Assembly: GCA_030737835.1 (NCBI GenBank)
Contig: CM060847.1
Location: 21,292,433 to 21,356,432 of the forward strand
Direction: 5' to 3'
Source: Acorus gramineus
Lineage: Eukaryota; Streptophyta; Magnoliopsida; Acorales; Acoraceae
DNA length: 64,000 bases
Part shown: positions 13,544 to 61,100 of the stretch, one piece after another
How positions within the stretch are numbered: position 1 is the first letter of the stretch
How the letters are laid out: the number at the start of each line of letters is the position of its first letter
Notes under the pieces: generated by a model
The model's database searches: none
Told to the model about the DNA's origin: nothing
The model's input: the letters and a program-made list of their open reading frames with translations, nothing else
Made by a program: the position numbers and the translations under genes

Positions 13544-13990
13544 TTATAAATATGATCATGCATGACTATGGTTGATATTTGATCCTTATAGTATTAATGT
13601 GATAATATATTTTAATTTGTGTATTGCCTAAATATTTATATGTCATGCACAACATTACATATATATATATACCTCGTGTTGGGAGATATATATCTCTATA
13701 GATGCTATACTATCCACGAGATTATCCCCATAGAATACGTATAACAATATTCAAATAATATATCACAATATTTAATACGGTACATATTTAATAAAAAATA
13801 AAATCACATCCTTCAATAAATTATAAGAATTCATTTATAAAATATTTGAAAACTTTTAAACACTTTATTAATTAATATGGGGGGTATATAGGATTAAAAT
13901 TTGCGCTGGAAAAGGGACCTTGTGTGACAGCCTTCTTGAATATTATCTAAATCAAAACTATAATGTATATGTCAGCATTAACTGCCATTG

Positions 13991-20049: not shown

Positions 20050-20170
20050 CCACTCGACCAGCACCCCCAGCACGCCCAGCACCCAGCACGCCCAGATCCC
20101 AGCACGCCCAGATCCCAGCAAGCCCAACACGTCCAGCGCCCAGCACGCCCAACACGCCCAGTACACCCGC
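20050..20170. repeat. GC-rich minisatellite (CAGCACGCCCA-type)
   Basis: About ten diverged copies of a 10-13-bp unit (CAGCACGCCCA, CAGATCC, CAGCGCC) lie in a block (19740-20350) that is almost entirely C/G-rich. This produces long spurious frames on both strands. Confidence 0.75.
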
Positions 20171-33060: not shown

Positions 33061-33952
33061 GTGAACTACCCAAATACCCTTGCAACCAACCCCCAATATT
33101 TCTTGTGCCCCGACCTTTTGAAATTTTTTTTCTGTTCCCCTGCAAAAAATACCTAAATTTTTTTCTACCCTCATCCCTTTAATTCCCCCGGCCCCACAAA
33201 ATCGCAGTTTCCCCCTGTAAGTGCATATATGCCTTTTGTAACTTTTAGAACACAAAATGTAATTTTTATAATTATTATTTGTAAATGTATTATTATGCAT
33301 GTCATGTAAAAATGCTTACTTGTAAAACACTAGAGAAACATACATTAACGCATAACACCTAAAAATATTATATCACAATAAATACATCAAAGCACTTGAA
33401 TTCATCGAATGTTTGCATTCCGATGTTCTTTTTCCTAGCCTAATGAACTAAAATGCTGTATTTTCTCTGATCATCTTCATGTCATTTTGGTTGAAATTGA
33501 ATCCACTGTTATATTTTCGAGTTAGCAAGCGTACATCATTAGGAAGAAAACGTAGTTCAAACTATACTAGAGATGCAACAATTAGTCAAACACCCAAATA
33601 AATCAAACACCAACAAATGTGTATTTCATGACAATATAAGAATTACATATATATTAATGTTATGTATTAATGTATGTTTTTTTAGTGTTTTATAAGTTAC
33701 CATTTTTACATGACATAATAATACATTTACATATAATACTTACAGAAATTTCATTTTGTGTTATCTAAATTACAGAAAACATATATGCACTTACAGAAGG
33801 GAAACTGTGATTTTGTGAGGCTGAGGGAATTAATGGGATGGGGGTAAAAAAAAAAATTAGGTGTTTGCTGTAGGGGTACATAAATTTTTTTTCAAAAGGT
33901 AGGGGTACATAAAATATTAGAAGTTGGCTGCAAGGGTATTTGGGCAATTCAC
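33061..33952. mobile_element. Foldback element, arms about 300 bp
   Basis: Left arm GTGAACTACCCAAATACCC and right arm GGGTATTTGGGCAATTCAC are inverted, and similarity continues inward for about 300 bp (for example TGTAAGTGCATATATG against CATATATGCACTTACAG). A 300-bp unique centre remains. No transposase. Flanks ATATAAAGA and ATATAAAAGA are similar but not an exact duplication. Confidence 0.6.
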
Positions 33953-34981: not shown

Positions 34982-37900
34982 ATGCTGACCGCCTCCGCGC
35001 GTTGCCTCAAGCGCCTCTCCTCCTCCTCCGCCTCCCCCTCACACCACTCCCGCCTCGCCCCCTTCCTACTCTCATGGACCACCACCGCCTCCAACCCTCC
35101 AACGCACCCTCCCCTCGTCCGCCGCGCCAGTCACCACTCACGCAGCGCAACCGCAACCACCGCCGACGGCGCCTCCTCCGCCAATCCGACGGACCCGCCG
35201 TTCGTTTCGGTCCGAATCCGCTGCGACAGCCGAGTTGCCGTAAGTCGCCCCCTTCTTTTTGATGGATTGCCTTTTTGTTGTTTCACTTTGGACTGGTTTG
35301 GAATAAGATAAAATGGGAATAGTATGCTATTCTGATTTGTGTTTGGTGTTTCCATGGCTCAAAACCCTCTTTTTCCTATTCTTATGCGGGGCTTATTCCA
35401 CAAGCAAAATGGAGGATTTAGGTAGCGTTTGTAAAAGGGTCCGGAATAAGTGGGAATTAGTTGGAATAGCCTCAAAATGGGTGTTTGGAAGGCTGGAATA
35501 ATGAGAATCTGTATACTAGAATTAATTGATGTAAAGTGGTATATGGATTCCAGTCAACTCCTGGAATAAGTTATGAGATTACTCAACCCAAAAGATGTCC
35601 AACCTTGTTTAGATTAAGATTAATTACTGTAAAAGTAGAAACTTTAAAAAAAGTCCAACCTTGTTTTTAAGTGTTTCCATAGAGGTTGTCTGATTATCCC
35701 ATTCAGTTTCTTAAAGCTGAGTGAGGACTGACATGCATAATCACAAAGTTACTGATTTGGATTGTTGCATTTGATTTATAGGCATTGTTTTTTTTTTTTT
35801 TTTTCATTTTTGTGTTGAAGGGATGATTAATCTCAATGTTTATGTGGGTGCTTAAGAAGTGAATTGAGGTATTGATTCTTATTTCTGATCTGGCATATTC
35901 ATGTATTTTATGATTTGCAGTGACGCTGAGATGTTTGTTTGTGTGTGTTTTCTGACGCAGTTCCTCATTGGTTTGGGCAGGATACTCTTTCAGAAGCACT
36001 TATATGCTTTGGTGCTAGTTCTGCTAGCATGGATGAGTTAGACAGTAGTGAGAGCAATGAGGAGGTAAACCCAAGTATTTGAACTCTTCCTGGATTGTTT
36101 CTTGATAATACTCTGTTTTGCTTTAGTTTGAGTTAGTTCCTTGAAATGTTGTCTATGGTTTAATGTTCTTCAATTAGTGAGGAATGTGCAGTGTAAAAGA
36201 AGACTTCATGAGAAGAAAATGTGTGAACTTATGCAGCAGGGTAGTTTGACTTTTGATGGTTGGGGTTTAATATTTGTTGGTTGGGATTTGATGATTCGGA
36301 TATGGGATATCTGATTAGAGTTTTATTAATTTACAGCTTTTATGATTAAGGATACCTTTGTAATCAAGTTTTGACTTCAACTTGTGTCGTGGGGTCTATG
36401 CTATACCATCATTATTCGTACTTCTAAGATATAAGAAATCATACTTTGTGGTGGATATTTGGCACCCATTTCACTGTCAAGTGGGAGCTTCTCTTGTTAT
36501 TAGTGAATTGCGTATGGTGAACTCTTTTTCTCAGAAAATAAAGGAGCATCTATGGATGCTGAATTGGTTGCTTAAAATATGCATTACTAATATATTTACA
36601 CGATGAATTGTCATACATTTTCCTATTGGTTGCTCATTGTGTTTCTTTGGTCTTTGAAGCTGTGCCTGTAGACCTTCATCACTTCCTTATTTGTAGATGA
36701 ACAAGATGTTCAGAATTGCATCTTGTATGCTGCTCAGTCCATTGGATTACATGATATTCCACATTATGAAGCCAGAAATGGAGAACACTATGATTGGTTA
36801 AAAAATGTACAGGTAAACATGATTGCATAAAGAATTTTCCATCTTTTATTTTTCAAATACGTTAGTTGTGATCCATTTATGTTAAATATTTCTACTTTGA
36901 ACGATGGATAATGTTGAAATTCAGTGAAGAATACGCAAGACTGGAAATCCAAGGATGTTTGGCTCGCTTAGTCCCCTCATAAAGTACATATCATTATGTG
37001 GTTTGTACTTTTAGAAAAAGCACGCTCAAAGGTGAGGAGAAAGTAAATGGGCTCGAATGGTGGTACAAGATGTGCCCTTGATATGGGTCAAGGAGATCAT
37101 TGAGCATCTTGATCTGGTGGCCTATCAATCATGGGATTTGGGTGAGGTTCTCCATCTATTTGGAAAGAGGGTAAGCTTTCTGTTTATTCAAAGCAAATGG
37201 AGTCTATTCCATTGACTTGATAAGAAGAGTGAAAAGCAAAAGAAGAATACAGAAACTTCATCCATTGTATATGCCATTTGCTAGAATATATGGCTCATGG
37301 GAAATGAATTTTTAAGGAAGGAAATGGACATGGAAAATGGAGAAGCTAGCTCGTGAAGTGGAGCAACTCAGCCAATAGATAAGTCGACAATCACTTCGAA
37401 GACGAGCGGGGGAGGGGGGGTTTGATATGCTAAATCAAGAACTCCTCATGGGAATATTTTGAGACTCAGAGACAAAAGCAAGGGTAGGTGTTCGATACTG
37501 ACCACGATGGAAGTCGTCGAAGACGTTGTAGGTGGTAACAACATCGTTCCCACGTACGTCATATGAGACAATCAGGTCAGAATTAGGAATGGAAGACTTC
37601 AAGGAATCTGTCGAGGATGATTGGAATATGGTGTTCCCAGGTTTAAAATATTTGGAAGAGTCTGCATTTGAAGAAGCCTCTGTGGAAGAGCTTACCAACG
37701 ACAACTACACATCAAAAGTTGTTGATGGAGATGACTAATGTTTCGAATACCTTAACACATCAATGTGGGAATTGGCATACCATGTAGACGACGAAGTTGA
37801 CATGTTTTATCCGGGTGAATGTGAACCTTTTGAGTTCAAGTACGAAGTCTCTTCGGCATGGAGAGAATGATGCTAATGAAAGAGTCTGAGAATAAAGATG

Positions 37901-40900
37901 CCTCTCAGTCTCAATAAATGGTCCTCGATAGGATTGATCCTCAAGCATCTATCCAGAGGCAAACCATCACCTAGGGCGTCCAACAAATTCAAATTCAAGT
38001 TCTATTTCGTATTTGAGTTTAATTAAGGTTTCACCGGGTTCAAATCCAAAATTGATTCAAGAATTTGATGAAGGATTTGTGCAAAGAAGTTACAGAGAAT
38101 ACCAACAAAATCTGAGATTCGCAACCTTCTAGACCGTTTTTTTTCAAACTTTTCCATGCTAATCCAACACCTCAAATTTTTGGGATTTGCAATCGCTTTA
38201 AAGGCCTATAAATATCTCCCCTAATTCAGTCCAGTTTTGAAATTTAGATTGAGTTATTTTGTTATTCATATTGGTGTAGTTTGTGAGTTCCTAATTTATC
38301 TAGTTGTTTATACTTCAATGTTAGTTTGAGAGGTTATTTTTTAATTTATTGAGTGTTATGTTTCCATCATAATTTCGATTTACTTCATGTTTTCTTTCCT
38401 CTCTTGATCTCTTCACCTCCTGAACACTTTGATTTTGATTTATTCGATATGTTCATGTAGTGCCAGGAACCAGATTTGAACTGGTTGACACGAGAATTTT
38501 CATTCCTCTGCTCTACCAACTAGCTATCCCAGTTATTCCCGATAGATCATCTTTCTTAATGCAGCCTTTTTCTTTCTGTCAATTAAAGAGAGACAGACCG
38601 AGAGAATTGTATTAGAAAATGCTCCGCACCTGTGGTCACCTTCGGTCGCCTCCCTGTTTTAGTTTGAGATTTTTTTTTCAAAAGAGATTGAAAAGTCAAA
38701 GTGTGACGAATATGGACTGAATGATTCAATAATTGAGAATACTGAATTTCTTTGTCTTCGGTTGTGAATTCTGTCTTCGACTAAACGAAGTTGAACTAAC
38801 ATGAAACGAGGGAGAACTGAAGTTCTGGCTTGTCAACAGAAAGATTAGTGGACATTTGAGTGACTTAGACAAGACGCTTAAGCAGTGGAGATGTGTGACG
38901 AACCAAACAGATGCGCTTTTGTTGTTGTGCTATCTATTCAATTCTTTCTTCAACCGCTTGAAAAACAGTTCAGCTGGATATAAGAAAAAATAAAAGCCTT
39001 TTCGGTCTTTCATCTGTCTGTAATTATGGTTCGGTTCAGCCGAGTGCTACTATCATTTGTCACATTCATACATGCATTCTCTCTCTCTCTCTCTCAATCT
39101 TACTTAAAACATTTTGAACCTCTTCTTCACTTTGATCACCTCTGACTTTTGACCTTCACATAGTATAAAGTTCTTTGGAAGCTCACATAGGAGCGAAGCC
39201 TCTTGCTATAGCTTTCTGACCTGACTTCCCTATCAGTCACCTGGGCTCGTTTCACCGTTTCTAGTTCCTGGTTTTCATTCATTTGAACCTGCACCGTCCC
39301 TAGCACTGGTTTCAGTCTCCATATACAATCCGCAGATCTTACAGCTCCATAGTACCTTCTGGTCAGTACCAAGAATGAAAATAGTTTTTTGTCTATCTGA
39401 ACTGAACAAGCCTACTAAGAAGCCAATGGTCCAACAGTTCCCACTAGTCAGCTAGGAATGAGAGAATCCTAGTCCGACTATGAATGCTTGAGCATAGGTT
39501 TGAGATGCCTGAGTTTGAATCCTGACTTTCTTGCACTCGAGAGGCCTGAAACAGGATATTTCATGAGTTGTACATCACCTCAGCAAACATCTCCCATTGA
39601 AGCCATCACACATTGAATTTGAAATGTCATCTACATAGATCCGGGATCCCCTTCCCTTTCCAACAACAACGGGGAGTGGTCAGAACACAACCTTGGAAGA
39701 CCCTTCAGGGAGCAAAAGGAAAATGCTCTTTCCCAAAGCGGATCAATAAGCACCTGATCCAAGCGAGCTAGGGATGGATCCTTTCGCAGGCTACTCCATG
39801 TAAGGACTGGTTGGACAAAACTACATCCAACAACCATTTGCGTGAAATCCACTCGGAAAATTGCGGCATGACCTCATACATATGCTCGGGTCTATTTCCA
39901 TTCTCCGCGGACCTTGTCATGTTGAAGTCCCCCATGACACACCAGGGAAGATGTGACTGCTCCTTGATCAAATTCAACTCCTCCCACAACAATGAGCGCT
40001 GCCCATCCTCATTAGGCCCGTATACCCCTGAACAAATCCATCTCCAGCCCATAATCACATCTTCAAGAACCACCGAAGTGGAAAAAAATAACTCCTATAG
40101 AGACCTCAATCTTCCTCCATTTCAATGGGTTCCAACAAACTAGTATGCCTCCCGATGCAACAACGGAAGCTTTGAAGACAACAGTCTCCAGCCTACCCAC
40201 CCCTAGAGATATCAAGTCCGCCTGACTAACGTCCTCGAGCTTTGTCTCTTGTATGCAACATAAATGAATATTGTGCCTCCAAATCAGCTCCTTAACGGCT
40301 GCTTTCTCCATCGGGTCATGCAGACCCCTCACATTCTATCAAAGGAAATTAATCATTAATTGACAGTCTGATCCTTCACACCCAGGCCTGCACCTATGTC
40401 GCGAGCTCTCCTATCTGAACCACCATCCACCTGATCCTCCTGCCCATCCCTCAGACCTGCCCCCTTGAAAGCCTACTCGATTAATGGTCTTACAGGGTCC
40501 GATAAACTCCGTTCTATTGAGCAACTATCATAGTTTGAAGTGCACATGCTGATGTGCGCACAATAAGAGGGCTTTCGAAGTTCAGTTCGAACTAACTTCG
40601 AATAGTAAGAGGGTGTTTGAAGTTCAGTTCGAATTGACTTCGAACGGTAAAACTTACCTCTGAGTTTGAATTGCCATTCAAATGGAAACATATCGTTCGA
40701 AAGCCGTTTGAATGGCAATTCGAATGTCTAGAGGACGCTTGAAGTTCAATTCGAATGGGGGTTCGAACGACTGCCTTACCCTATGTGCGACCGCATTTCA
40801 GTACATGCGGCCGCATATGCCATGTGTAGACCCCACCGCACATGCGGTCCGCACAAGGTTTTGAACTATGGCAACTATTTATATCATCTAATCATAAATA

Positions 40901-43900
40901 TGATCCCCAGTTAAATTTTATTTAAAAAAAATTAAGAACTCTGCTGTTTTATTTCATAAGTGCATCTTATGATCTGTATAGCAAAAAGTTAATTTGAAGT
41001 TATCCATTGCATGATGACAATGTTAGTATGTTACATTATTTGTATCTACACTGTCTTTCTATATGTCAGTTTGCCTTTAGATAAATCTACTCACAAATTC
41101 TTTATATTTAATAGCTGAGTGTTTTCATTTTATCTTCAGGATTCATTTCACCCTGTGGAAGTCACTAATGGACTTTGGATTGTTCCTGAATGGAGAACCC
41201 CCCCGGTATGATTTAATTATAGTTTTCTTCTCACCATGGTTGCTAATAACATGAATAGGTTGTCGTTTATTTACGATTTTATTTGTTCATTATCAAGTTT
41301 TCTTTATGTGACCTAGTTTTACTGCAAGATTCATCCTTTATTGATAATTTTCCTTTGCCTCCTGTGTTTCTTTAGCTTTTCTTATCCGTGTGCTAGTTCC
41401 CAAATGAGATATCCTTCTTGTTTTGGGTCAATCAAACATCCAGTTGCTAGAAAGGAAGCAGACTTGTTAAATGTGCTAGCTAATCAAACATATTTCAATT
41501 ATGTGAAGAAAACTTCATAGTTTATGGTACTCCTTTTCCTCTTTCTTGGTGGAGTTCGTATGCTTGTGTATGATGAAGTTACTATTGTTGTCTTTTTTAT
41601 CTGTACCCACCACGTTGGAAGGTAAATTGTTTGCAGCCACATGACAGAATCCACATGTTGCCTTTAATTTGAAATTTGATTTTGTAGGAAAGAGTGTGCA
41701 AAATCATATTTTGTGATCTCTTAGCCATACAGATGATTGTGTTAAAGCTCTTTATCAACCATTGGACAGGAAAGATTGCTCTTTACAAAGTATTTACATG
41801 AGGGGCTTCTTGAGAAGTGTTTTTCATTAGTAAATGCAAACTGAATGTACACATAGTCAAATGGGCTATTGTATGAAGCATATGAAGGGTCGTGATGAAA
41901 TGTTGTTGACTTGATAGGGTCGGTTAAGTTCCAAAAATTAAGAATACCACTAATATCTATTGGGCTTTTAGGGAAGTGAACTCCCCATAGTTCCTCCACC
42001 AAATTGCTCAATTAATTAGAAAATTATGTTTTTCTCTTTTTTATTTCTTGAAGAAATACTTTTTATGCCCTTGGCATTCAACTCATCCCTTGTCTTTTCC
42101 ATACCACTCATACTCATGAGACGGATAAAAAGCACACGAGTTCCCATTATTTTTTTGTAATAAAAAATTTGGACCATTTCTCGATTTGTGCATGTAATCC
42201 CTGTGGCCCATTAATTATGATTAACTGTCACCTACTCAACCATGTTTCAAATAATTAATCAAGAATGCTTTTCTAAATGGTGGGTTTTTGAAGACCGTTT
42301 GACAGTTTTTGGTGCCTGCCCCAACATACAATTTCCAATCAGTTATCCATGTTCTTCTTGCTTTAGCCGTATTCCCAAACATTCATGCAGTAATTATTAG
42401 TTGAAATTTGACGTTGCATCATTGGTGGCTATAGTAAATCACCATAAATATCTTCAATGTTTCTCCTGCCAAGCAGGACTAGTTGCTTTCAAGGAATCCC
42501 TGATCCATTATTAACCGTAAGCATCCTTATCTTGAGTGTCTTCCATTTGTCAAGTAGGTTCTCAGCTTCTACACTGATTGAGGGCTTTATGTTTCTTTTG
42601 GCTCCTAAATTATCTTCTCCGAATGAATGTAAAGAAGAAATAAATGGAATAATGTATATATCGTAATGGAGGCCGAAAGGTCTTTTATATAGTTACAAGA
42701 TGTACAAACCCTAAAACAGAAAAAGACCAAAATACCCAAAAAACCCTCCAGCCCGGGGGGGGGGGGGGGGGGCTGCGGCCCATGGGGAGCGTTGCCCCCC
42801 AACCCCCGGGCCTCCGGGAATAGGCCCAACAACAGGCCTATCCAATAACTCCAATACTCTCCCTCAAGTTGGAGCGAAGATATCAATCAAGCCCAACTTG
42901 ATCAAGCTAGAACAAAGAACAGAGGGACCAACGGACTTGGTGAACATATCAACAAGTTACTCATTGGAAGAGACAAATGCTGTGTCAATGGCGTCTGACT
43001 GTACTTTCTCTCGAAGAAAGTGAATGTCAACCTCAATGTGTTTGGTCCGCTCATGAAGAACTGAGTCCGAGGCAAGCATAATGGCAGATCGGTTATCACA
43101 AAACAAAGTAGATGAACCAGCTACAGGGAATCCCAACTCTGTCAAAAGAGAGCGCAACCAAATGATCTCACATGTGCCTTGGGCCATGGCACGATACTCT
43201 GCCTCAGTAGAAGAACGAGAGACAACACTCTGTTTCTTACTTTTTCGGGAAATAAGGTTGTCCCCATGGAAAGTACAGAAACCGGAGGTGGATCGACGAT
43301 CAGTGAGTGAACCAGCATAATCTGCGTCAGTGTAACAAGAAATGATAGGCTGAGCACTAGTAGCATAGAATAAGCCAAGACCTGGGCATGACTTCAAGTA
43401 TCGAAGAATCCTGTAAACAACATCTAGGTGAGAAGTCCGTGGGGCATGCATGAATTGACTCACCACGCTGACAGCAAAAGTCAAATCAGGTCTAGTATTC
43501 GTCAGGTAGATCAAACGACCCACTAGACGCTGGCACAAAGAAGGATCTGGTAGAAGGTCGCCTGATTCAACATGAAGGCGATGGTTCGGGTCCATAGGAG
43601 AAGTGGCAAGGCGACATCCAAGCATACCGGTGTCCTCAAGAAGGTCAAGAGTGTATTTTCGCTGGGAGAGCGAAATACCATGGCGTGAGCGAGCAATCTC
43701 AATCCCCAAAAAATATCGAAGAGGACCTAAATCCTTCACATCAAACGCATGTCCAAGCTCAGTCTTCACTCTGACAATGTAATCAGCATCATCTCCTGTG
43801 ATAATGATATCATCCACGTAAACTAGAACAATGGTGCACCGTCCATTACTTCGACGAATGAAGCAAGTATGATCAGCATGACAACGAGTGAATCCAAGAG

Positions 43901-46900
43901 AGAGAATGATTACACTGAATCTTTGAAACCATGCTCTCGGTGATTGCTTCAGTCCATATAGAGACTTGAGAAGAAGACAGACCTTCCCGGAATACTCCCC
44001 CTGAAGACGAAAACCAGGCGGAGGATCCATATAAATTTTCTCTGTCAAGTCGCCATGAAGAAAAGCATTCTTCACATCCATCTGATGAAGAGGCCAGTTG
44101 TGACAAGCAGCAAGAGAGACAAGAAGCCGAACAGTAGTCAGCTTGGCAACAGGAGCAAATGTAGCATGGAAATCCTTCCCTGGAGTTTGAGTGAAACCTT
44201 TTGCAACAAGGCGTGCCTTATAGCGCTCAACAGCCCCATCAGCCTTGTATTTTACTGTGAAAACCCATCGACACAACAGTTCTCTCCCCTGGTGGAAGAT
44301 CAACTAACGCCCACGTATGATTTTTCTGCAAGGCATCCATCTCTGCGGTCATAGCGGCGGTCCAAAGAGGATCCTGTAATGCCTCAATTACAGTACGAGG
44401 AATACGGATAGACGATGTAGCAGCTAGGTAAGCTCTGTAGGAATCTGAAAGTCCCTGATAAGAAACAAACTGGGCAAGAGGATGAGCAGTGACACAACTC
44501 CGACGACCTTTGCGAAGAGCAATAGGTACATCAGAGTCAGATGGAGGCAAATCAGAAACAGAATATGGAGTGATCAAGGAAGAGGATATACCTGAGTCCG
44601 AGGAGGATGTCGACAAGTGAGCAGGAGAGAGAGGTGGTCGAGGTCTACGAGTGTATACAATAAGAGGAGACTGTGGTGGTGATGACTGTGGATGGAACGA
44701 CTGTGGTGGTGGCGACCGTGGCTGTGGCAAAGGCAATGGCTGAAAAAATGATGCCGGTCGAACTGGTGAAGAAGAATGTTGCAGAACCGTGTCAGAAAAA
44801 TATGGCACATCCTCAAAAAATGTAACATCAAGGGAATGGAACAATCTCCGAGAAATAGGATCATAGCATCTATATCCTTTGGACATGGTGGAATAACCAA
44901 GGAAAACACAACGTATAGACTTATCATCAAGCTTGGTGCGTGAAGGCCCCCTATCCTGAACAAAACAAGTACACCCGAAGACTCGAGGAGTGATGGGGAA
45001 AAGAGTACGACAGGATACAAAACATGGAAGGTAACTTGACCTCCTAAAGTACGACTGGGAGTCCGATTAGTCAAACAAGCAGCAGTGAGGACTGTCATAC
45101 TCCAATAGGACTTTGGAACACTCATTCCTCGAAGGAGACAACGAACCACATTCATGAGATGACGATTCTTACGTTCCGCCACCCCATTCTGCTCAGGTGT
45201 ATATGGACAAGTCAACTGTTGAAGGATTCCCAACTCATTCAGATGAGACCGAAAAGAATCCGAGACATACTCCCCCCCATTATCAGACCTGATACTCTTG
45301 ACAGTAATGTTAAACTGTGTTTTAATCATGCGTAAAAAATTAATACACTGAGAGGATACCTCAGACCGAGATTTAAGAAGATAAACCCAAGTATATCTAG
45401 AAAAATCATCAATGAATGTCAAGTAATATCTATGACCACCAAAAGCAGTAACAGGAGAGGGACCCCACACATCAGAATGAATCAAATCAAACAACCCAGA
45501 AGCTTTATTCATGCGAGAAATATAAGTTGTACGGGTATGTTTAGAAAGCTCACACACAGCACATTGAAATTTATGAGTCTTACATGAAGAGCGAAAAGTA
45601 GGAAATAAAGAACATAGATGCTGAAAATTGGCATGTCCTAAACGAGCATGCCATAAATCTAGAGATTGTAAAGAAAAACTATGCGAATGATCAGTGGACA
45701 AAATGGAAGCATGGGCCGTGGTGGGTGGTTCTCCGAAGACGTAAAGACCATCTCTCTCATACCCCTTGCCAAAAATCCTCCGTGTACTCAGGTCCTGAAA
45801 AACGCAATGATCAGGGTAAAAAGTCACTGAACAGTTCAAAGCCTTAGTCAATTGGCTAACAGAAAGAAGGTTAAGAGCAAGATTGGGAACATGTAACACA
45901 GAGTGTAATGATAAAGAGGAAGATAAAGGAACGGTACCCTTACTGATGACAGGTGTAAGTGAGCCATCAGCAAGGCGTACCTCTCTGTGTATAGAAGGTG
46001 ATGTCAAGGGAACAAACAATCGAGACTCACCAGACATGTGTTCTGTAGCGCCTGAATCAATGACCCAAGTAGGAGACCCTGATTGGTTAACATGGTAGGC
46101 GGAGGGGATACCTGAGGTAGAGGAAGAAGCAGCAGTGGATGTTGGACCAGCATTAGAGAGACCAGCATGAGAGACATGAGAGGCAAGACTCTCCCGAACC
46201 ATAGCATCAATATGGTTCTGAATATTACGCATATCAAAGGACCCAGATGGAGCAGAGGGGGCATCACCCGGAACCAAGGCATCAGCAACAGCAGCACGAG
46301 GGGCAGACGAAGTAGCTCCAACATTGTGAGATCGCATCAAGTGTGGGTACAGAATAAAACATCTGACTTTTTCATGACCTGTTTTTCCACAGTGGCCACA
46401 AGTCACAATATTGCGGTGTCCACGTCCACGACCACGACCACTATCCCCGTGGCCGCGAGAGTCATATCCAGAAGTGGCCGCCAATGCCATCTGATCGCCG
46501 AGGGTTCCAGTGGTCGCTGAGGAAGAGATCTGACGGCGATGCTCATCACCCTCAATAATAGCAAATGCCTCGAATAGAGAAGGAAGTGGTGTGGTATTCA
46601 AGATCTGAACACGAAGAGATTCGAACTCTGATCGAAGGCCCATAAGAAACGCATATGTCTGTTGGCGTTGTAGTCGGCCAACCACAATCGTGGCAGCCTC
46701 CTTAGGCAACTCCGAGAGAGGCTCATAGTGGGCAAGTTCCTCCCAACGAGCCTGCAGAAATCCAAAATAATCGGTAACTGATTGGGTACCTTGGGTGGCC
46801 TGGGCAATATCCTTGTACAACTCATAGATCCGTGAGTCATTCCTGGCATGACCATAGGTCTTCTTCAACGCAGCCCATAGAGAGTCGACCGTATCATGAT

Positions 46901-49900: not shown

Positions 49901-52900
49901 GTAATCACATATTTGTCGAAATATTTTGACAAGTCTCACTTAATAGTGGCAAAGCTGCATATCATGTTATGCTACACAAGATAAATACAAGAGAATATTA
50001 CAACATTTTATGAATAAAAAAAAAAAAAACATGTACATCATCAAACATAATCCAAGCACACAAACATAGTACTAGAGTTGCATATATTTTCATTCTATAA
50101 TAGATAAATACATGAGAATGTTACAACATTCTCAAATAAAAAAAAAAGTTTCAGAGCAGTGAATATTTACATTACAGTGTTGGTTTCATAATTCAACTTC
50201 TACGGTCGTTTGATGGCCAGGAGTACAAGCAAACACCATCAATATGATACATAAGCATGAACAATATCCAAAGATGAGTATCCCTGTGGGGCGTTGAACT
50301 GCGGCGGCCTTCTCCACCTTCTTCTGAACTGGCACCTGGTAATACTCGGGTCCATGCGCCCGACACAATTCATCAACCCACATGAAGCATTGTGGATGTT
50401 CCTGATTACATGAATGTCAATAAACATTTTTTTTTATCTTGGGACCCCATGTAGCCCTCCCACGGTTGGCTTCCATTAGCTACCAACAACAAGGAGGGAA
50501 GAAAATTGTGAGACAAGGGATTTACGTATACCTATCATGTATTAATGCGAGCTAATGGTATGATTTATTAGTTGCGATAAATTTCAACAAGGAAAGGTAA
50601 ACACCTTTCAAAAAATTGAAAACTATTCTAGGATGGAGTAAACTCTAGATGAGTCACAAATACCCAAGAGTGTCCATGTTTAAGATTAATCAAATCATCC
50701 AGAGGAACTCATGTACATGATGTGCATGTAACAGCTCAAATATTGATAAAATCCTATAAAATGTAAACTCTATTTAGCAACATAGAATAAAAATAGATCC
50801 AAACCACAAGAAGAACCAGCTCCTCCTTGCTTTTTTACGAACAGATTGTATACTTGACTCATCTATTTCTATTACTGGTGATCATCATAGATAAATACTT
50901 TTCTTACAACTTGCTCAATTAATTTTGTTTATGGTTAATAGTTTAGACAACAACAGTGCATTGGAGGCAACATCCCAACAAAATCAGATAAATAATACAA
51001 GGCTGCCTAGATTTCTAAAGTATGGACCAGCAGTACATAAAGAACAACCCACGTTTTATCTTAGTTGTATCATATCCCATCTATACAAGGCTGCCTACAT
51101 AAATCACATCCCATCTATACAAGGCTGCCTACATAAATCACATCCCATCTATTGGTTGTTTATATTAAAGGACAAGTTTATCTTCTAACAATTGTATCAT
51201 AACAAGTTTTCTCTCTAATATGCAATCTTCATTCAACTTTGCTAAAACAAATGAGGTGTAAAACTGTTTCACCTCACTTGTATTCTTAGGTGTCCTTCAT
51301 TCAACTTCTTCAAAGATCAACAACAATATCATATTTATTTAAAGAAAAGCAATAGATTCATCCCCATGAGACCTGGAAACATAGATATCCAATCCCCTAT
51401 ATTTCAATTGTTATAACTACTAGAAACAATGTTAATTAAGAGAGTTCTCAATTGTCAACCCCAACCAACAATTAGTACCAAACTATCAATTTTTATATTG
51501 AATTATCCTAACAGTCATTTTTGCACATCCTCTCTTCCTCTCTGTCAAAATATTGTGGCCAGTCTGTTGCATATTAAGGAGTCTTTCATTTCTAATTATG
51601 ATAGTATCCAATTTGTATTACAACTAAATGGCATTTCAAAGGTATATAGCTGCACCCCTTCAGCCCTTCTCAAGACTTCTCAGAATATTACCCTGGATTA
51701 TAGAAGACTTGAGAAAAATAATAGAACAAAACAAAAAAAATATAATAAACAACTATTACCCAAGAGAAATGCACTTCACACACATACAGATCAAAGTGCC
51801 ACATAAACCCGTTAAAAGGAAAAATGTAAGAAACAATTATGTTTACAATTCTTTTTCAAATGTACGAAGTGTGTGTGTATATATATATATAAAAACAAGG
51901 ATCATTCAACTACAGATGCCATTTTCATCTATTCAATTAAGATCACATAACAAAAGTATCATTCAAACATTAAACCAGATAAAGAAAAAAAAAACAGTAG
52001 GTGCATGAAATAAGTCCCATAAAACCCCTCCAAAAAATAAAACAAAATAATAAGAGTGATAAAAATCCTTCATACTCTCATTAATTGACCACTTCCACCC
52101 TAGTACCACATATCTTAAGCATCACCAATCAATAAAATCATAATCTACAGACAATCCCACTTCAAAAAATCAGGTCTTGCACTAAAAAGCAATCAATCAT
52201 CTACCATTACATCTGATCTACCCAACAATGAAAAAGAACACACATTTCAGCCGACGCTCCCTATAGATTCATCTACATGAAACCCTAAGATCAACCCTAA
52301 CCTTGTTCATCTACATCAAACCACCCTAAGATCAACCCTAACCTTGTTCATCTACGTCAAACCCTAAGATCAGCCCTAACCTTGTTCTTCTACATCAAAC
52401 CCGAAGATCAACAAATCTGAAGAACATAAGCATGAGCAGAGAAGATTTGGTGGGTTTTACCTAGATCGTTGGCCGGGAGGAGATCCAAAGAAGCAGAGAG
52501 TGTCGGACAGCTTGTTGGAGATGGTGAGAGGGAGATCAGAGTGTATCGGGCTGTTTCGTGAGGAGGAAGCATATTGGAGTGTAGGATCAGTCAACGAACA
52601 TCATGGTCTTTTTGTAGGAGATTTGTGATCCTGGGTTTTAGTCGTCCGTTTTTTGGGTTTTTGGCGCAGAAGACAAAAGAAGGTCGAACAGGTTCACCGA
52701 TTGGGGTTCATGTCGTCCATGTTTTGGTAAAAAAGGGAGGGTTGTCTTCGGCGCATAAAAAAGGAGGAGAGAGAAGGTATGGTTAAGTGAAAGAGGATTT
52801 AAATACCCTATGTAAATATCAAACTTTTACAAGGGCATTCTTGTCTTTTCATAGATCAAACGAAACTCTGAATGCGTTTGTCGGATATTTAAGTGGGGTA

Positions 52901-55900
52901 ACCAGAGCTGAAAATTTTTGGGTAAAAATCACTGAATGAGGGACATAATCAGTACTTATTTAAAGTCCAACCAAATGAGCTTAAAGCAGATTTTAAGCTT
53001 TAAGTCGGAAAAGCACGGATTATAAGTGCAACCAAACAGGGGCTAAGGTTTTGAACTGTTCAGTGACTTTTTACCCTGATCATTGTATTTTTCGGAACCT
53101 GAGTACATGGAGGATTTTTGGCAAAGGGTATGAGAGAGATGCTCTTTACGTCTTCGGAGAACCACCCACCACGGCCCATTCTTCCATTTTGCCCACCGAT
53201 TATTCGTATAGTTTTTCTCTACAATCTCTAGATTTATGGCATGCTCGTTTAGGGCATGTCAATTTCCAGCATCTATGTTCTTTATTTCCTACTTTTCGCT
53301 CTTCATGTAAGACATAAATTTCAATGTGCTGTGTGTGAGCTTTCTAAATATACACGTACTACTTATATTTCTCGCATGAATAAAGCTTCTGGGTTATTTG
53401 ATTTGATTCATTCTGATGTGTGTGGTCCCTCTCCTGTTACTGCTTTTGGTGGTCATAGATATTACTTGACATTCATTGATGATTTTTCTAGATATACTTG
53501 GGTTTATCTTCTTAATTCTCGGTCTGAGGTATCCTCTCAGTGTGTTAATTTTTTACGCATGATTAAAACACAGTTTAACATTACTGTCAAGAGTATCAGG
53601 TCTGATAATGGGGGGGAGTATGTTTCGGATTCTTTTCGGTCTCATCTGCATGAGTTGGGAATTCTTCAACAGTTGACTTGTCCATATACACTTGAGCAGA
53701 ATGGGGTGGCGGAACGCAGGAATCGTCATCTCATGAATGTGGTTCGTTGTCTCCTTCGAGGAATGAATGTTCCAAAGTCCGATTGGAGTATGACAGTCCT
53801 CAGTGCGGCCTTTTTGATTAATCGGACTCCCAGTCATACTTTAGGAGATCAAGTTCCTTTTCATGTTTTGTATCCTGATTGTACTCTTTTCCCCATCCCT
53901 CTTCGAGTCTTCAGGTGTACTTGTTTTGTTCAGGATAGGGGACCCTCATGCACCAAGCTTGATGATAAGTCTATACGTTGTGTTTTCCTTGGTTATTCCA
54001 CCATGTCCAAAGGATATAGATGCTATGATCCTATTTCTCGGAGATTTTTTCATTCCTTTGATGTTACATTTTTTGAAGATGTGCCATATTTTTCTGACAC
54101 GGTTCTGTAACATTCGTCTTCACCAGTTTGACCGACTTCATTTTTTCCGTCATTGCCTTTGCCATAGCCACAGTCGCCACCACCACAGTCGTCACCACTA
54201 CCATTGTCACCATCACCGTCTCCTCTTATTGTATACACTCGTAGACCTCGGCCACCTCTCTCTCCTACTCACTTGTCAACATCCTCCTCGGACTCAGGTA
54301 TACATTCTTCCTTGATCACCCCATATTCTGTTCCTGATTTGCCTACATCTGACTATGATGTGCCTATTGCTCTTCGCAAAGGTCGTCGGAGTTGTGTCAC
54401 TGCTCATCTTCTTGCTCAGTTTGTTTCTTATCAGGGGCTTTTCGATTCCTACAGAGCTTACCTGGCTGCTACATCGTCTATCCGTATTCCTCGTACTGTT
54501 ACTGAGGCATTACAAGATTCTCTATGGACCGCCGCTATTACCGCTGAGATGGATGCCTTGCAAAAAAATCATACGTGGGAGTTAGTTGATCTTCCCCTAG
54601 GGGAGAGGACTGTTGGCTGTCGATGGGTTTTCATAGTAAAATACAAGGTTGATGGGGCTGTTGAGCGGTATAAGGCACGCCTTGTTGCGAAAGGCTTTAC
54701 TCAGACTCCAGGGAAGGATTTTCATGCTACATTTGCTTCTGTTGCCAAGTTGACTACTGTTTGGCTTTTTGTCTCTCTTGCTACTTGCCACAACTTGACT
54801 CTTCATGAGATGGATGTGAAGAATGCTTTTCTTCATGGCGACTTGCCGAGAAAATTTATATGGATCCTCTGCTTGGTTTTCGTCTTCAGGGGGAGTATTC
54901 CGGGAAGGTGCGTCTTCTTCTCAAATCTCTGTATGGATTGAAGCAGTCACCAAGAGCATGGTTTCAGAGATTCAGTGTAATCATTCTCTCTCTTGGATTT
55001 ACTCGTTGTCATGCTGATCATACTTGCTTCATTTGTCGAAGAAATGGACGGTGCACCATTGTTCTAGTTTACGTGGATGATATCATTATCACAGGAGATG
55101 ATGCTGATTACATTGTGATTAATTGATGGGGACATCAAGTCAATAGATGCATTTAAAGGTTATCAGAGGAGGAAGGGCAAGAGATCTAATCTTATTCCTC
55201 TGTGGATAGAGATTAGTTAGGTTTTTTATTTTATTTTGAATAAGAATTGTAGGATTTTATGTGGACCATTGATTTTTAGGATGATCAATGGCCTAAATTA
55301 AATCATTTAATTTGCTTGTTATTTAATTTAAGTTATTGTAGGATTCAATCTAGACCATAGATCTTTAGAATGATCAGTGGACTAGATTAAATCACTTTCT
55401 CATTAAATAAAGTTGGAATCTCTACGGAGAGACAGATTGAGAATGAATGAAAAGTTTCTTTTTGAGAGATCCTGCGATCGGATTTTTGTGAGGGTGTGAA
55501 ACTCTAATTTTCTTGGGTGTGAAGCCCTAGGGTGTGAAACCCTAACAAGAACTTGGGTGTGATGCCCTAGAATCTATTTTTTTAATTTTATTTTCTCAAA
55601 CTACATATCCCAACCCTAACCCTAATCTTAATCATCATCACATACCCCTCCATCGTATCCTGTCCTGCATCAATTTTGGTATTCGAGCCAAGGTTCCTAG
55701 GGTGTGAAACCCTAGATCTAAGCCTTCAACAGCCCCTGCTGCTGCTGCCTGGACCTCCAACAGCCCCTGCTGCTGCTGCCTGGGCCTCCATCAACCCTGC
55801 TGCTGCTGCCTGGACTTCCAACAGCCCTGCTGCTGCTGCCAGGACCTCCAACAGCCCCTGTTACTGCTGCCCTGGACCTCCAACAGCCCCCGTTTTGCTG

Positions 55901-58900
55901 CCCTTGTTGCTGCCGTGTTGCTGACGTGCTGCCCTTGTGTTGCTGCCATCAATATTCTTCTCGTGTTGCTGCCCTATTGTTGCTGTGTGAGTCCCTCCCT
56001 TGCATCCAAATCGGCAATACCATCGAGAGTAAAGAAGAAGAAGAAAAAAAAAATGGTTGATTCTATGTTCGTTCTGAAAACCCTAATTTGCTTTCCTAAT
56101 GGGAAAGGTGCTTCCTTGATTATCGATGAAAGTCTCGAGAAGAATATGATTTCTCAAGCAGTTGTGGCTATGTTATCTAAGACTGGGGAAATTATCGTAG
56201 AAAATCAAGCTGCTTTTGTTAAATGGTCTATGAAACCTTCGTATTTTGATGGAGAGTGGTGTGACATGTTTTCATCATCCAAACGTTCTATTACATTGGG
56301 TCAACCATGGATAAAAGCTTGGAAATGTATATTTGATTATGAAGGGAGATCATGCACCATACGCCCGCTTTGTATACAGAAGAAAATTATCCTTAAAGGA
56401 TTACCAGATGCAAGATCATCAACGTCAACAAAAGATGCACCTCCAAAGAGACAACATAAAAATGAAATTCAAGAGAAGGTTGATGTTTCATTTGTGGAAG
56501 ATCTGATACCTATTTCACAACAACTGTCTCCTATGCCTGTTTCACAACAACCGCCTCCAATGCCTGTTTTACAACAACCACCAACTTGCAAGGAAATTGC
56601 TATAGAGATCGGCGATCCAAAAGAAATTTATACGGTGATAGAGCAACTGAAGATTTCTCTGACAAATATTTGTGAAAGGCCGCAATTAAAGATTTTACTT
56701 TTCCATTAGGATCCTTTCAGATACATGCAACAAGAACCTCATGACCTTCGAGTTATATCATTCTCTAAAACTGGAGGACAAGTTTTCTCAAACAAGGGGA
56801 GAATTGATGGGGACATCAAGTCAATAGATGCATTTAAAGGTTATCAAAGGAGGAAGGGCAAGAGATCTAATCTTATTCCTCTGTGGATAGAGATTAGTTA
56901 GGTTTTTTATTTGATTTTGAATGAGAATTGTAGGATTTTATGTGGACCATTGATTTTTAGGATGATCAATGTCCTAGTGTAAATCATTTAATTTGTTTGT
57001 TATTTAATTTAAGTTATTGTAGGATTCAATCTAGACCATAGATCTTTAGAATGATCAGTGGACTAGATTAAATCACTTTCTTATTAAATAAAGTTGTAAT
57101 CTCTACGGAGAGACAGATTGAGAATGAATGAAAAGTTTCTTTTTGAGAGATCCTGCGATGGGATTTTTGTGAGGGTGTGAAACCCTAATTTTCTTGGGTG
57201 TGAAGCCCTAGGGTGTGAAACCCTAACAAGAACTTCTTGGGTGTGATGCCCTAGAATTTATTTTTTTAATTTTATTTTCTCAAACTACATATCCCAACCC
57301 TAACCCTAACCCTAATCATCATCACATACCCCTCCATCGTATCTTGTCCTGCATCACATTGTCAGAGTGAAGACTGAGCTTGGACATGCATTTGATGTGA
57401 ATGATTTAGGTCCTCTGCGGTATTTTTTGGGGATTGAGATTGCTCGCTCATGCCATGGTATTTTGCTCTCCCAGCGAAAATACACTCTTGACCTTCTTGA
57501 GGACACCTGTATGCTTGGATGTCGCCTTGCCACTTCTCCTATGGACCCAAACCATCGCCTTCATGTTGAATCAGGCGACTTTCTACCAGATCCTTCTTTG
57601 TACCAGCGTCTAGTGAGTCGTTTGATCTACCTGACGAATACTAGACCTGATTTGACTTTTGCTGTCTGCGTGGTGAGTCAATTCATGCATGCCCCACGGA
57701 CTTCTCACCTAGATGTTGTTTATAGGATTCTTTGATACTTGAAGTCATGCCCAGGTCTTGGCTTATTCTATGCTACTAGTGCTCAGCCTATCATTTCTTG
57801 CTACACTGATGTAGATTATGCTGGTTCACTCATTGATCGTCGATCCACTTCTGGTTTCTGTACTTTCCATGGGGACAACCTTATTTCCTGGAAAAGTATG
57901 AAACAAAGTGTTGTCTCTCGTTCTTCCACTGAGGCAAAATATTGTGCCATGGCCCAAGGCACATGTGAGATCATTTGGCTGCGCTCTCTTTTGACAGAGT
58001 TGGGATTCCCTGTAGCTGGTTCATCTACTTTGTTTTTTGATAATCGATCTGCCATTATGCTTGCCTTGGACTCAGTTCGTCATGAGTGGGCCAAACACAT
58101 TGAGGTTGATGTTCACTTTCTTCGAGAGAAAGTACAGTCGGGCGTCATTGACACAGTTTTTGTCTCTTCCAATGAGCAGCTTGTTGATATGTTCACCAAG
58201 TTTGTTGGTCCCTCTGTTCTTCGTTCTAGCTTGACCAAGTTGGGCTTAATTGATATCTTCGCTCTAATTTGAGGGGGGGGACTGGAGTCATTATATAGGC
58301 CTGTTGTTGGGCCTATTCCTGGAGGCCTAGGGGTTGGGGGGCAACGCCCCCCATGGGCCACAACAACAGGCCAATGTTGGCAATCGCTGATTGGGCACAC
58401 AAGGGTTCGGGGGCAGCGCCTCTGACTCGAATTTTTTGTCATGGGTATTTTGGTCATTTTCTGTTTTTAGGGTTTGTACATCTTGTAACTATATAAAGGA
58501 CCTTTTGACATCCATTACTCAATACAATATTATTCCATTTATTTCTTCTGTTTTCATCATCCAATTGCATCTTCTTGAAGAAATACTTGGACTTCCATTT
58601 TTGTGCATATCGATCTATCGCATTGGCAATCACCCAGAGTCCTCTTGTATATGCAAGGGTGCTATAGAAGAGAGACTGGATTTACTTTTAACCGTTGACA
58701 TATTTTTTTGCACAGAGTCCTAGGTTCAAGTATTTGGGGCAATCACTCTGTATAGTCCCAAAAGGTTAGGTTGTAATAGTGTATCTTGTCTTTCCCCTGT
58801 TAGCATGTTGTGTCATGTGTGGCCAATTATGGGGTGGTGGACTGTGCTATAGCACATTTTTACAAACCAATACATATTTTAAAAATTTGAGCCCACTTAG

Positions 58901-61100
58901 TGTGAAGAAGGACAATATCTTATTGTGAAACCTAGAGTGTTATAATTGGTATTAGTCTTATGCTATGCGGTGGGTCGGTATTGATCCCACATGAAGGCAT
59001 ATAGCCCATTAAGGGGGATGGATATCATGTATGACCCACTATGGGTGTGGTGGGCTGAGCTGGGTATGATCCTATTAGACCCATGTCGAGTGGGGTGAGT
59101 GAGAATTTCCACCATGGTTTAGTCCCACGTCGTCTAACAGGGGAGGATAATCTATGCTTATATGTTGGCACAATCCTTACACACCATCGTTTTTTAAAGC
59201 TGTGAAAGCACTAAGGGAAAAATGGATACTATCTTGTTGTATAAGCTGGGGCGTTACAAATGTGGGATCACTTATTTATCGCTTTACATATGTCTAGAAC
59301 TATAAACTTCTGATCCCAAATAAAGTTGTATTTCACCTTTTTTAGAATTTTGTGAGTTCTTTTAAAGCGTGTTCTTCTATCGGTCTTAGTGAAAATAGAA
59401 ATACAAGATCTCCATGAATTTCTGGAAGTATTTGACATTTTAGAATGATATGTGCATGTTGAACTCATTGGCAGGATCCACATGCAAAAAACATAATTCT
59501 GAACCCAGGATTGGCTTTTGGAACTGGGGATCACCCAACCACAAAATTGTGTTTGTTGTTGTTGAACGAGTCTATAAAAGGAGGAGAATGTATTTTGGAT
59601 TATGGCACTGGGTCCGGAATTCTTGGAATTGCAGCATTGAAGGTACAAACATCTTTAGTTGGACATTTCTGACAAGTTATTTTTGATTGTTTGATCCCAA
59701 ATAATTCTTTTCCAAAAATGTGGTAAAGTTAGTGGATGCCCTGTTGAAGATTTACTAAATGTAAAATTTTGTACTTCTGTTCTCACCAAAATCATTTGTT
59801 TAGTTTGGGTTGTATATTGTGAATTTGTAAGTTACAAAAACAAGTCTGCTAAAGAAATAACTGAGAATGGAGTAAAGAACTGACACCCAACTCCTACTTT
59901 ACACTTTTCTCACATATTGTTTCATTAGAAGCATTCCTTAAGCAACTTCCCGTGCCAGCCCATGTATTAAACAAGCAACCTGACTCTGTTCCAAAAACAT
60001 GCACTATAAGAAAATTTAGTTATTTTCTTTAGCTTGTTATAAACAACCTTTAAAGTCAATATTATGGATTCCTAAATGACATTGCATACTGTAGCTATTA
60101 TACAAATGTGGAACATTTAATTTTGTTAAACCTGTCTCTTATATCAGACTCTGGAACTTAACAAATATCTGCTTATCATTGTTTATCAGTTAGGTGCTGC
60201 TTTTTCTGTTGGAGTAGATATTGACCCTCAGGCGATAACTTCTGCACATCAAAACATTGTTTTGAATAAGATAGAACCAGACAAAATGCGGTTATACTTG
60301 GTTTCCCATCAGGGTGCTCCAATTTCCCCAGATGAAGGTACATGCAATGATAAAGAAGAGCCAAGTTCATGTAGCTCGGGGCTGAATATTAGGAGGGGTA
60401 AATTTGATATTGTTATAGCAAATATACTCTTGAATCCATTGGTGGAGTTGGCAAAAGATATTGTTGCCTATGCGAAACCGGGAGCAATCATTGGTCTGTC
60501 GGGAATTATAACTGACCAGGTAATTTTCCCAGTGCTGCACCATACAAGTGCATACGTGGATATCTATATCGTAAAGGTTTTCAGTGGATAAAATTTAGGG
60601 TCATTTGCATGAATACCCCTAAAAACCATATTTTGTTGGAATACCCCCATTGAAGCTCTATTTCCACAAAGACCCATGCATAAATTTAAAACATATATAT
60701 TTGTTATGACTGAAGGGCATTCGTGCACAACTTGAACCCTTTTTGATGGGTGTTGCTAGAATAGGGTTCCAATTGGAGTATTTTGACCAAATGGGGTTGT
60801 TTTAAGGGTATTTATGCAAATACCCTAAAATGGCTTTCATTTTTTATTGTTACTTTTTTTTTAAATGGCATATGTGAAATCTCTCCATTTTGTGTTTTTT
60901 TTTTTGTTGTGTGCATGTGTGATTTGCATACATGTGAATTCTATGTGGTTGTCCATAGATACTAATCATCTTGTGTCTCTTGTTTATGTGTGTAGGTTCT
61001 TCAAGTAGAGAAGCATTATTTACAATTCTTGGATGGAATTCGAGTGTCGGAAATGGATGGCTGGGTTTGTCTCAGTGGTACCAGAAAGATTAATATATGA
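34982..61100 (+). CDS. PrmA-like ribosomal protein L11 methyltransferase, 7 exons over 26 kb
   Basis: A SAM-dependent methyltransferase of the bacterial PrmA family, which methylates ribosomal protein L11; the plant form resembles Arabidopsis At5g53920. Exons: 34982-35239, 35981-36064, 36672-36812, 41140-41205, 59475-59642, 60190-60519 and 60996-61100 (TGA). All joins are phase 0 with GT-AG borders, giving 383 aa. The first 75 residues are rich in Ser, Arg, Pro and Thr with few acids, like an organelle transit peptide. Visible family parts: [14 protein letters not shown], then [14 protein letters not shown] (193-206), the SAM motif DYGTGSG (225-231), VDIDPQA, and ANILLNP (316-322). The C terminus has [12 protein letters not shown]. 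No in-frame stop was seen in any exon, so the gene looks intact. Introns 3 (4.3 kb) and 4 (18.3 kb) are swollen by mobile elements; intron 6 holds a MITE. Confidence 0.92.
37378..38450 (+). mobile_element. LTR-retroelement fragment in intron 3
   Basis: A coding-end-like stretch (TTCGAAGACGAGCGGGGGAG) followed by a purine tract (37400-37421) precedes an LTR-like segment with TATAAATA at 38207-38214. This order (polyprotein end, polypurine tract, LTR with TATA) fits the 3' end of a Ty3/gypsy-type element. The second LTR and pol were not found, and the 3' border is unclear. Confidence 0.35.
38461..38533 (-). pseudogene. Plastid-type trnF-GAA-like sequence
   Basis: Minus strand reads GGGATAGCTAGTTGGTAGAG, then an anticodon loop ATGAAAA (GAA) and GTTCAAATCTGGTTCC, very close to plastid tRNA-Phe. 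Differences: one base lost in the D arm, one extra A before the T arm, and a mismatched acceptor start. These make it a decayed copy transferred from an organelle. It lies in intron 3 of the PrmA-like gene. Confidence 0.7.
39620..40345 (-). mobile_element. LINE endonuclease-domain fragment in intron 3
   Basis: Minus-strand frames read as the AP-type endonuclease at the start of LINE ORF2: [41 protein letters not shown], then [13 protein letters not shown] and LCSDHSPLL. Frames shift at least twice, and the usual Trp before NVRGL is a TAG. Reverse transcriptase is absent here. Confidence 0.8.
40490..40860. repeat. TTCGAA-rich repeat with inverted parts
   Basis: Two 42-bp copies (40565-40606 and 40607-40648) of a unit with GAAGTTCAGTTCGAA are followed by a third, diverged copy at about 40730-40772. 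Between them are inverted TTTGAATTGCCATTCAAA-type phrases. The end carries GTGCGACCGCAT and its inverse ATGCGGTCCGCAC. Confidence 0.65.
42633..47603 (-). mobile_element. Ty1/copia retrotransposon A (intron 4, minus strand)
   Basis: The 4971-bp element is flanked by TGTAA at 42628-42632 and 47604-47608. 5' LTR 47323-47603 (281 bp) and 3' LTR 42633-42856 (224 bp) share AGAAGAAATAAATGG at the plus-strand left edge and CCAATAACTCCAATA at the right. Directly inside the 5' LTR is the primer site TGGTATCAGAGCC (complement of 47310-47322), complementary to initiator Met-tRNA. A purine tract GAGGGAGAG (complement of 42857-42865) precedes the 3' LTR. Both LTRs contain a long G run. The 5' LTR keeps about 60 bp that the 3' LTR lacks. 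Confidence 0.92.
42864..47210 (-). pseudogene. Copia A gag-pol, frameshifted
   Basis: Gag begins at the ATG 47210-47208 and ends in a CX2CX4HX4C zinc knuckle ([14 protein letters not shown]). Next come the protease motif DSGATEHM, the integrase His-Cys region ([20 protein letters not shown]) and core (DVWGP, DNGGEY, AERKNRH), then reverse transcriptase ([21 protein letters not shown]) and RNase H ([20 protein letters not shown]). This order (integrase before reverse transcriptase) defines Ty1/copia. The frame shifts near 45010 and 44275, and a TAA at 42957-42959 replaces the Gln codon of the sister copy. It could not make a full polyprotein. Confidence 0.9.
50186..52600 (-). pseudogene. Possible captured gene fragments in the PIF/Harbinger element
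   Basis: On the minus strand an exon-like block near 52590-52460 (GC-rich, ending in a GT donor near 52460) is followed far downstream by a block with a CAG acceptor near 50409. That block reads [14 protein letters not shown], a basic stretch and a hydrophobic segment ([19 protein letters not shown]), ending at 50186. 'CFMWVDE' plus a C-terminal membrane segment recalls small plant GRF-zinc-finger proteins, but the zinc ligands are not all visible. Gene capture is an inference. Confidence 0.25.
52270..52395. repeat. Tandem repeat, about 35-42 bp
   Basis: Three to four copies of a unit with CCTAAGATCAACCCTAACC followed by TTGTTCATCTAC lie within the PIF/Harbinger element. Confidence 0.7.
55728..55895 (+). 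repeat. CAACAGCCCCTGCTGCTGC minisatellite
   Basis: About five copies of a 30-33-bp unit (CCTGCTGCTGCTGCC, TGGACCTCCAACAG) lie in the leader of the small LTR element, just before its protease-like frame. Confidence 0.8.
56053..56709 (+). pseudogene. Degenerate retroelement aspartic-protease-like ORF
   Basis: From the ATG at 56053 a frame of about 218 aa is the only coding region of the small LTR element. Its middle ([21 protein letters not shown], then [13 protein letters not shown]) matches the flap and C-terminal half of Ty3/gypsy-type retropepsins, where one usually sees 'WCDV..LLGRPW..D'. The catalytic Asp-Ser/Thr-Gly is replaced by IIDESLEKN, so activity is unlikely. A Q/P-rich repeat ([13 protein letters not shown]) follows. 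An upstream extension of the frame to 55915 is low-complexity and not included. No Gag zinc knuckle is present. Confidence 0.6.
58860..59260 (+). other. Repeat-like segment with a USE/TATA-like pair
   Basis: Two related phrases, ACAATATCTTATTGTGAAACC (near 58912) and a TACTATCTTGTTGTATAAGC type (near 59227), bracket a segment. The segment contains GTCCCACGTCG (59122-59132) and TTATAT (59158-59163), about 25 bp apart. This is the layout of plant snRNA-type promoters, but a T6 run follows soon after and no known RNA is seen. Probably part of an unclassified repeat in intron 4. Confidence 0.3.
60595..60829. mobile_element. Foldback MITE in intron 6 of the PrmA-like gene
   Basis: Ends TTTAGGGTCATTTGCATGAA and the complement of TTTAGGGTATTTGCATAAAT are inverted, with CCCATTGAAGCTCTATT paired only loosely in the middle. 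About 235 bp, no frame, between exons 6 and 7 and clear of the splice sites. Confidence 0.7.

Follow-up and report, generated by a model that had tools for sequence, protein, structure and literature searches.

An intact PrmA-type gene of Acorus gramineus stretched by transposon insertions in an 18.3-kb intron

Can a plant gene stay whole, and in use, when one of its introns has been swollen to 18 kb by transposons? The question is raised by a PrmA-type gene located at 34982 to 61100 on the plus strand of the window, that is, the whole stretch of 64,000 nucleotides of Acorus gramineus DNA analyzed here. The gene model has seven exons, whose six joins are all in phase 0, and six introns that all run from GT to AG, giving a coding sequence of 1,152 bp (383 codons plus the stop codon).

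34982 to 35239, plus strand: exon 1, with the start codon and the N-terminal extension
35981 to 36064, plus strand: exon 2, 84 bp
36672 to 36812, plus strand: exon 3, 141 bp
41140 to 41205, plus strand: exon 4, 66 bp coding for 22 residues, in phase 0 at either end and covered by the alignment to a PrmA structure
59475 to 59642, plus strand: exon 5, carrying GTGDHPTT and the DYGTGSG motif
60190 to 60519, plus strand: exon 6, 330 bp
60996 to 61100, plus strand: exon 7, ending with the stop codon

The introns measure 741, 607, 4,327, 18,269, 547, and 476 bp, in order. The predicted protein matched the Pfam family PrmA (PF06325) in a single stretch, residues 74 to 379, which touches all exons (E = 1.5e-75; 254.9 bits against a cut-off of 22). 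The NCBIfam model TIGR00406 (prmA) was passed narrowly (183.7 against 183.15), and four other PrmA equivalog models (NF001784-6 and NF001790) scored under their cut-offs. Solved PrmA structures were also matched (3grz, E = 3e-22; 1ufk, E = 7.8e-19), and the best of these matches, 3grz, aligned to residues 164 to 268 with one two-residue gap, spanning the joins of exons 4/5 and 5/6. Since the WIVPEW segment of exon 4 aligns to PDB 3grz, we consider this a real exon and not a chance frame. An initial interpretation made from the letters alone (the sequence-only reading) had described seven phase-0 exons giving a continuous 383-residue methyltransferase; the GT/AG joins, the Pfam match, and the structure alignment bear this out. 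The five internal exons (35981 to 60519) are each in phase 0 on both sides, so that any single one could be skipped without loss of frame.

Reading the protein directly, we found residues 1 to 61 to be free of acidic residues, the first appearing at position 62, and the N-terminal extension resembles an organelle transit peptide. The product is predicted to be a PrmA-type methyltransferase, probably targeted to an organelle and acting on ribosomal protein L11; we infer both the targeting and the enzyme function from these sequence features. The Arabidopsis PrmA-like protein has GTGEHPTT where the present protein has GTGDHPTT. Both share the PrmA domain across the protein body and a transit-like N-terminal extension, whereas the present gene differs in spanning 26 kb. 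Alban 2014 and Mazzoleni 2015, both cited in a review (PMC5322211), reportedly deal with the Arabidopsis methyltransferase, and a paper on dual targeting is among the references of that review. Trimethylation of plastid L11 in Arabidopsis is ascribed by the review to a PrmA-like protein, depletion of whose gene had no phenotype.

Most of the length of the gene lies in intron 4, which we dissected by combining self-comparison, open reading frames (ORFs), Pfam searches, and inspection of the boundaries.

41206 to 59474, plus strand: intron 4, 18,269 bp, with four dissected insertions
42633 to 47603, minus strand (antisense to the gene): copia element A, target-site duplication TGTAA
47732 to 58549, plus strand (sense): copia element B, target-site duplication GTTTT
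49462 to 53043, no strand assigned: insert 1 in B, a 3.6-kb terminal-inverted-repeat (TIR) element, target-site duplication TAA
55116 to 57356, plus strand: insert 2 in B, a short 2.2-kb LTR element, target-site duplication CATTG

The filler thus comprises antisense element A (4,971 bp) and the 10,818-bp sense stretch of element B with its two inserts; subtracting the elements left 2,470 bp (about 2.5 kb) of intron. Without the inserts B measures 4,987 bp, near the length of A. Both A and B have the marks of Ty1/copia elements, namely an LTR pair, a 5-bp duplication, the integrase ahead of the reverse transcriptase, and copia-type profiles (Pfam rve, RVT_2, and SH3_retrovirus in both, copia gag in A). 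Their coding regions are broken across several frames, in contrast with the intact PrmA frame. The LTRs of A lie at 42633 to 42858 and 47323 to 47603 (K2P 0.048, 10 of 216 sites differing) and those of B at 47732 to 47993 and 58281 to 58549 (K2P 0.118, 28 of 261 sites). Neither element has the TG...CA ends of LTRs; in both the ends read TATTGG...TTCTTCT and were set where the two elements agree, although other readings of the duplications would allow other ends.

The ORF list gives insert 1 two frames, 126 and 129 aa long. Its ends resemble those of PIF/Harbinger elements, whose consensus we take to be a 3-bp TAA-type duplication with GGG..TGTTTGGTT-like inverted ends; CTAAG is common to both flanks, and a duplication longer than TAA can also be read there. 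Insert 2 has LTRs of about 555 bp (K2P 0.030, 16 of 551 sites differing), and the sole frame scanned in it, of 333 aa, had no Pfam match. The located ends and the target-site duplications uphold the earlier claim of two copia and two nested elements in this intron. Poly(A)-type hexamers on the plus strand occupy six positions in the 5' LTR of insert 2 and five in the 3' LTR, one in each LTR of A, and none in either LTR of B.

Element sequence stops 1.4 kb short of exon 4 and 0.9 kb short of exon 5 and has thus left both splice sites of the intron untouched. The donor (CCG/GTATGA) matches the consensus at 6 of 9 positions, and the six donors of the gene score 6, 6, 7, 6, 6, and 8. The acceptor tract, with 9 pyrimidines in 16, is the lowest among the six introns (10 to 13 in the others).

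Exon 4 does stand alone, as had been proposed, with repeat-bearing introns on either side. The content of intron 3 is more modest.

36813 to 41139, plus strand: intron 3, 4,327 bp, containing a tRNA relic and probably a LINE piece
38460 to 38533, minus strand: tRNA-Phe(GAA) relic, found by ARAGORN and matching Rfam RF00005 (36.8 bits, cut-off 29)
39771 to 40335, minus strand: probable LINE endonuclease-domain fragment, with weak Pfam matches

The tRNA relic, already recognized in the sequence-only reading, has the tRNA fold and a GAA anticodon. Its Rfam match comes from a scan of a 401-base stretch with permissive filters; at the gathering threshold, the whole window gave no Rfam match, the relic included. 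The site of primer f, assigned to the chloroplast trnL-trnF region in the part of PMC7821331 consulted, can be read directly in the relic at about 38474 to 38494, with one extra T. The relic therefore looks plastid-type and is probably organelle-type DNA that entered the nucleus, not the remnant of a transposon. The LINE piece that had been proposed is weakly supported, two of the three ORFs there having Exo_endo_phos matches below the Pfam cut-off (E = 2.9e-4 at 39771 to 40094 and 0.028 at 40066 to 40335), and the third, at 39634 to 39873, having no Pfam match. The LTR fragment proposed for the same intron could not be confirmed: both ORFs taken from about 37.0 to 37.7 kb were without Pfam match, and self-comparison gave no entry in intron 3, although a lone fragment would escape such a comparison.

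Elsewhere in the window, at 13982 to 16613 (plus strand), lies a PPR gene whose first ORF matches PPR_2 (E = 1.7e-56) and whose last matches the E motif (E = 8.6e-12). It is broken into three reading frames, the frame changing near 15847 to 15985 and again near 16221 to 16254; either the gene is a pseudogene, or it contains introns, or the sequence is in error. Two foldback repeats are MITE-like: at 13108 to 13536 a palindrome of some 430 bp with 82% self-complementarity, and at 33061 to 33952 a pair of inverted arms, each about 297 bp long, with 82% identity. The stretch at 19674 to 20621 is rich in Pro, Ala, and Thr, looks GC rich, and has several frames open on both strands, being probably of low complexity and not coding.

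Returning to intron 4, copia elements A and B belong to the same family and lie head to head with 128 bp between them, an arrangement that was not part of the sequence-only reading.

42777 to 58359, no strand assigned: inverted repeat of A and B, in three blocks, the B arm interrupted by the two inserts

The arms of about 4.7 kb are 93% alike (306 differences in 4,667 aligned positions), the longest perfectly complementary run is 110 bp, and of the 4,948 24-mers in A, 1,023 have a perfect complement in B, against none in one shuffled copy of A. The target-site duplications differ, so A and B represent two independent insertions, and we ruled out an inverted duplication as the source of the pair. 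Their interiors diverge by K = 0.069, below the 0.083 that the two LTR-pair divergences, each halved, would predict, and the LTRs of A differ from those of B by K = 0.18 to 0.24. In three coding stretches, differences fall on 118 of 1,369 third positions and on 137 of 2,742 first and second positions, an excess suggesting that the elements diverged under selection before they inserted. The mismatches cluster (P = 0.0035), while the longest identical run is unremarkable (P = 0.145; 2,000 shuffles). Rapidly evolving LTRs, subfamilies of recombinant origin, or gene conversion between A and B could account for the clustering and for the contrast between LTRs and interiors.

The LTR divergences make B the oldest dated insertion. 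Element A and insert 2 are younger, with divergences too close to order them; insert 1 carries no internal clock and is later than B by nesting. At a grass-type rate of 1.3e-8 per site and year, which may not be that of the host, B, A, and insert 2 would date to about 4.5, 1.8, and 1.1 million years. The rate of 1.51e-9, given in the relevant passage of PMC8626473 as adopted from magnoliid studies, may not be that of the host either, and converts the same K values to about 39, 16, and 10 million years. The ages depend on the borrowed rate, and we claim no absolute dates.

We then simulated the survival of the gene under free drift since each insertion, counting as intact a copy with frame, start, stop, and the 12 splice dinucleotides preserved. 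Indels entered at the rate measured in the alignment of A and B (17 frame-shifting indels per 306 substitutions); guessed rates of 0.1 to 0.2 per substitution were discarded, as they exceed it. Counting from B, A, and insert 2, the probability of remaining intact was 0.001, 0.05, and 0.16, respectively, with the full LTR rate and 0.024, 0.23, and 0.39 with half that rate, values to be read bearing in mind that LTR rates may exceed exon rates and that the A/B alignment partly predates insertion. The test is weak for insert 2, and for A at half rate. Survival by drift since B is improbable, so selection very probably acted on the gene when its intron measured at least 7.5 kb. The gene is probably still under selection at the present 18.3 kb, and its use with the full 18-kb intron is likely.

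Taken together, these results make it probable, in our judgment, that this is an intact PrmA-type gene stretched by transposons, in which four insertions lengthened intron 4 from about 2.5 to 18.3 kb, and that it is still transcribed and spliced. The whole frame and the dissected elements agree with the sequence-only reading on the stretching itself. Copia B would have entered an intron of about 2.5 kb, bringing it to about 7.5 kb; A would have followed beside it in opposite orientation, and the TIR element and the short LTR element inside it, the relative order of these three not being settled. Polymerase II most likely reads through intron 4, presumably methylated and silenced, and the spliceosome would then remove it; the sequence itself shows the anatomy, the intact frame, and B as the oldest dated insertion.

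An unlikely alternative is that the gene is a recently silenced copy, in which the latest insertions halted full-length transcription and the frame is intact for lack of time. Drift survival since insert 2 (about 0.16 to 0.39) would allow it, as would the depletion of the Arabidopsis PRMA-like gene without phenotype in the account of PMC5322211, by analogy with which the present gene may be dispensable. However, without selection the gene would hardly have survived since the insertion of B, which left an intron of about 7.5 kb (probability 0.001 to 0.024), and the intron 4 donor, at 6/9, is as strong as most in the gene. An assembly error that put together two unconnected halves, a possibility named in the sequence-only reading, is scarcely credible. 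Repeats of about 93% identity between the halves are a usual trouble spot, but all four insertions are flanked by their own matching target-site duplication, the halves agree in order, strand, and phase, and the window contains no N. The duplications TGTAA, GTTTT, TAA, and CATTG all differ, as they should if the elements inserted independently into a single uninterrupted host sequence. With just three bases, the TAA of insert 1 is weak evidence by itself, and the CTAAG flanks help. A false join could hide in the remaining intron (1,427, 128, and 925 bp) or in the interiors of the elements.

A different role for the transposons, very unlikely in our view, is that the A/B pair acts in the pre-mRNA, either as a hairpin that shortens the distance between exons 4 and 5 to about 2.4 to 2.7 kb and aids splicing or as a source of siRNAs that would silence this copia family and the intron. 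The length and identity of the arms, the 110-bp perfect run, and the shared 24-mers would permit pairing; distant splice sites can be brought close by long-range pairing, at least in cases described in PMC9198270, and in maize MuDR is silenced by Mu killer, a locus that contains transposon sequence duplicated in inverted orientation (PMC3440606, in the portion consulted). On the other hand, formation of the hairpin is hypothetical, and two independent insertions of one family account for the layout without any function. The same portion of PMC3440606 reports results contrary to a read-through hairpin model, and our search for a sign of selection for A/B pairing found none, the mismatch clustering having other explanations. 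Highly improbable, too, is the fuller scheme in which the opposed copia elements fold the 18-kb intron to about 2.4 to 2.7 kb, the siRNAs silence the family, and the second insertion neutralized the first, hence the tolerance of both. Mu killer is by analogy the nearest locus known to us, and the published cases consulted are mixed. Both place a transposon inverted repeat beside or within reach of host transcription (for Mu killer, as the consulted text of PMC3440606 has it), but the present one consists of two independent copia insertions in an intron and not of one rearranged MuDR. A narrow literature search returned no report of opposed LTR elements in one plant intron.

The preferred reading, an intact gene stretched by transposons and still spliced, fits what is known of other plants. 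In the sections of PMC8626473 concerned, long LTR-rich introns are prevalent in Chloranthus and magnoliids, 876 of 2,184 compared orthologs in Chloranthus exceed 20 kb, and its long-intron genes have higher expression until the introns exceed 40 kb. The corresponding passage of PMC3058033 describes large grapevine introns as more than 80% repetitive, with Copia more numerous than Gypsy. As there, LTR retrotransposons are the main filler here, Copia being prominent in grape, and we saw no difference in kind. In Arabidopsis, as summarized in PMC4417168, intragenic transposons are mostly shorter than 1 kb, and expression is lower in genes with intronic transposons than in those lacking them, so full-length insertions like the present ones may cost expression. 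Introns with silenced transposons for which the host factors IBM2/ASI1 and EDM2 are needed for transcription appear in the accounts of PMC4417168 and PMC7145194 for Arabidopsis and rice. The present gene shares with that class a long transposon-bearing intron within a protein-coding gene, while the Arabidopsis intragenic transposons are mostly short.

Splicing across silenced, transposon-bearing introns is thus a question already described for plants, and transposon-swollen plant introns are themselves well described, the present gene being a clean further example, ordinary in kind. What it adds is stepwise growth of one intron, which B enlarged from about 2.5 kb to some 7.5 kb and the later insertions to 18.3 kb, with the frame whole throughout, which makes the PrmA-type gene a handy test case for the splicing of long silenced introns in plants. 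The A/B pair raises the further, testable question of whether pairing of opposed insertions eases the splicing of an over-long intron or yields siRNAs.
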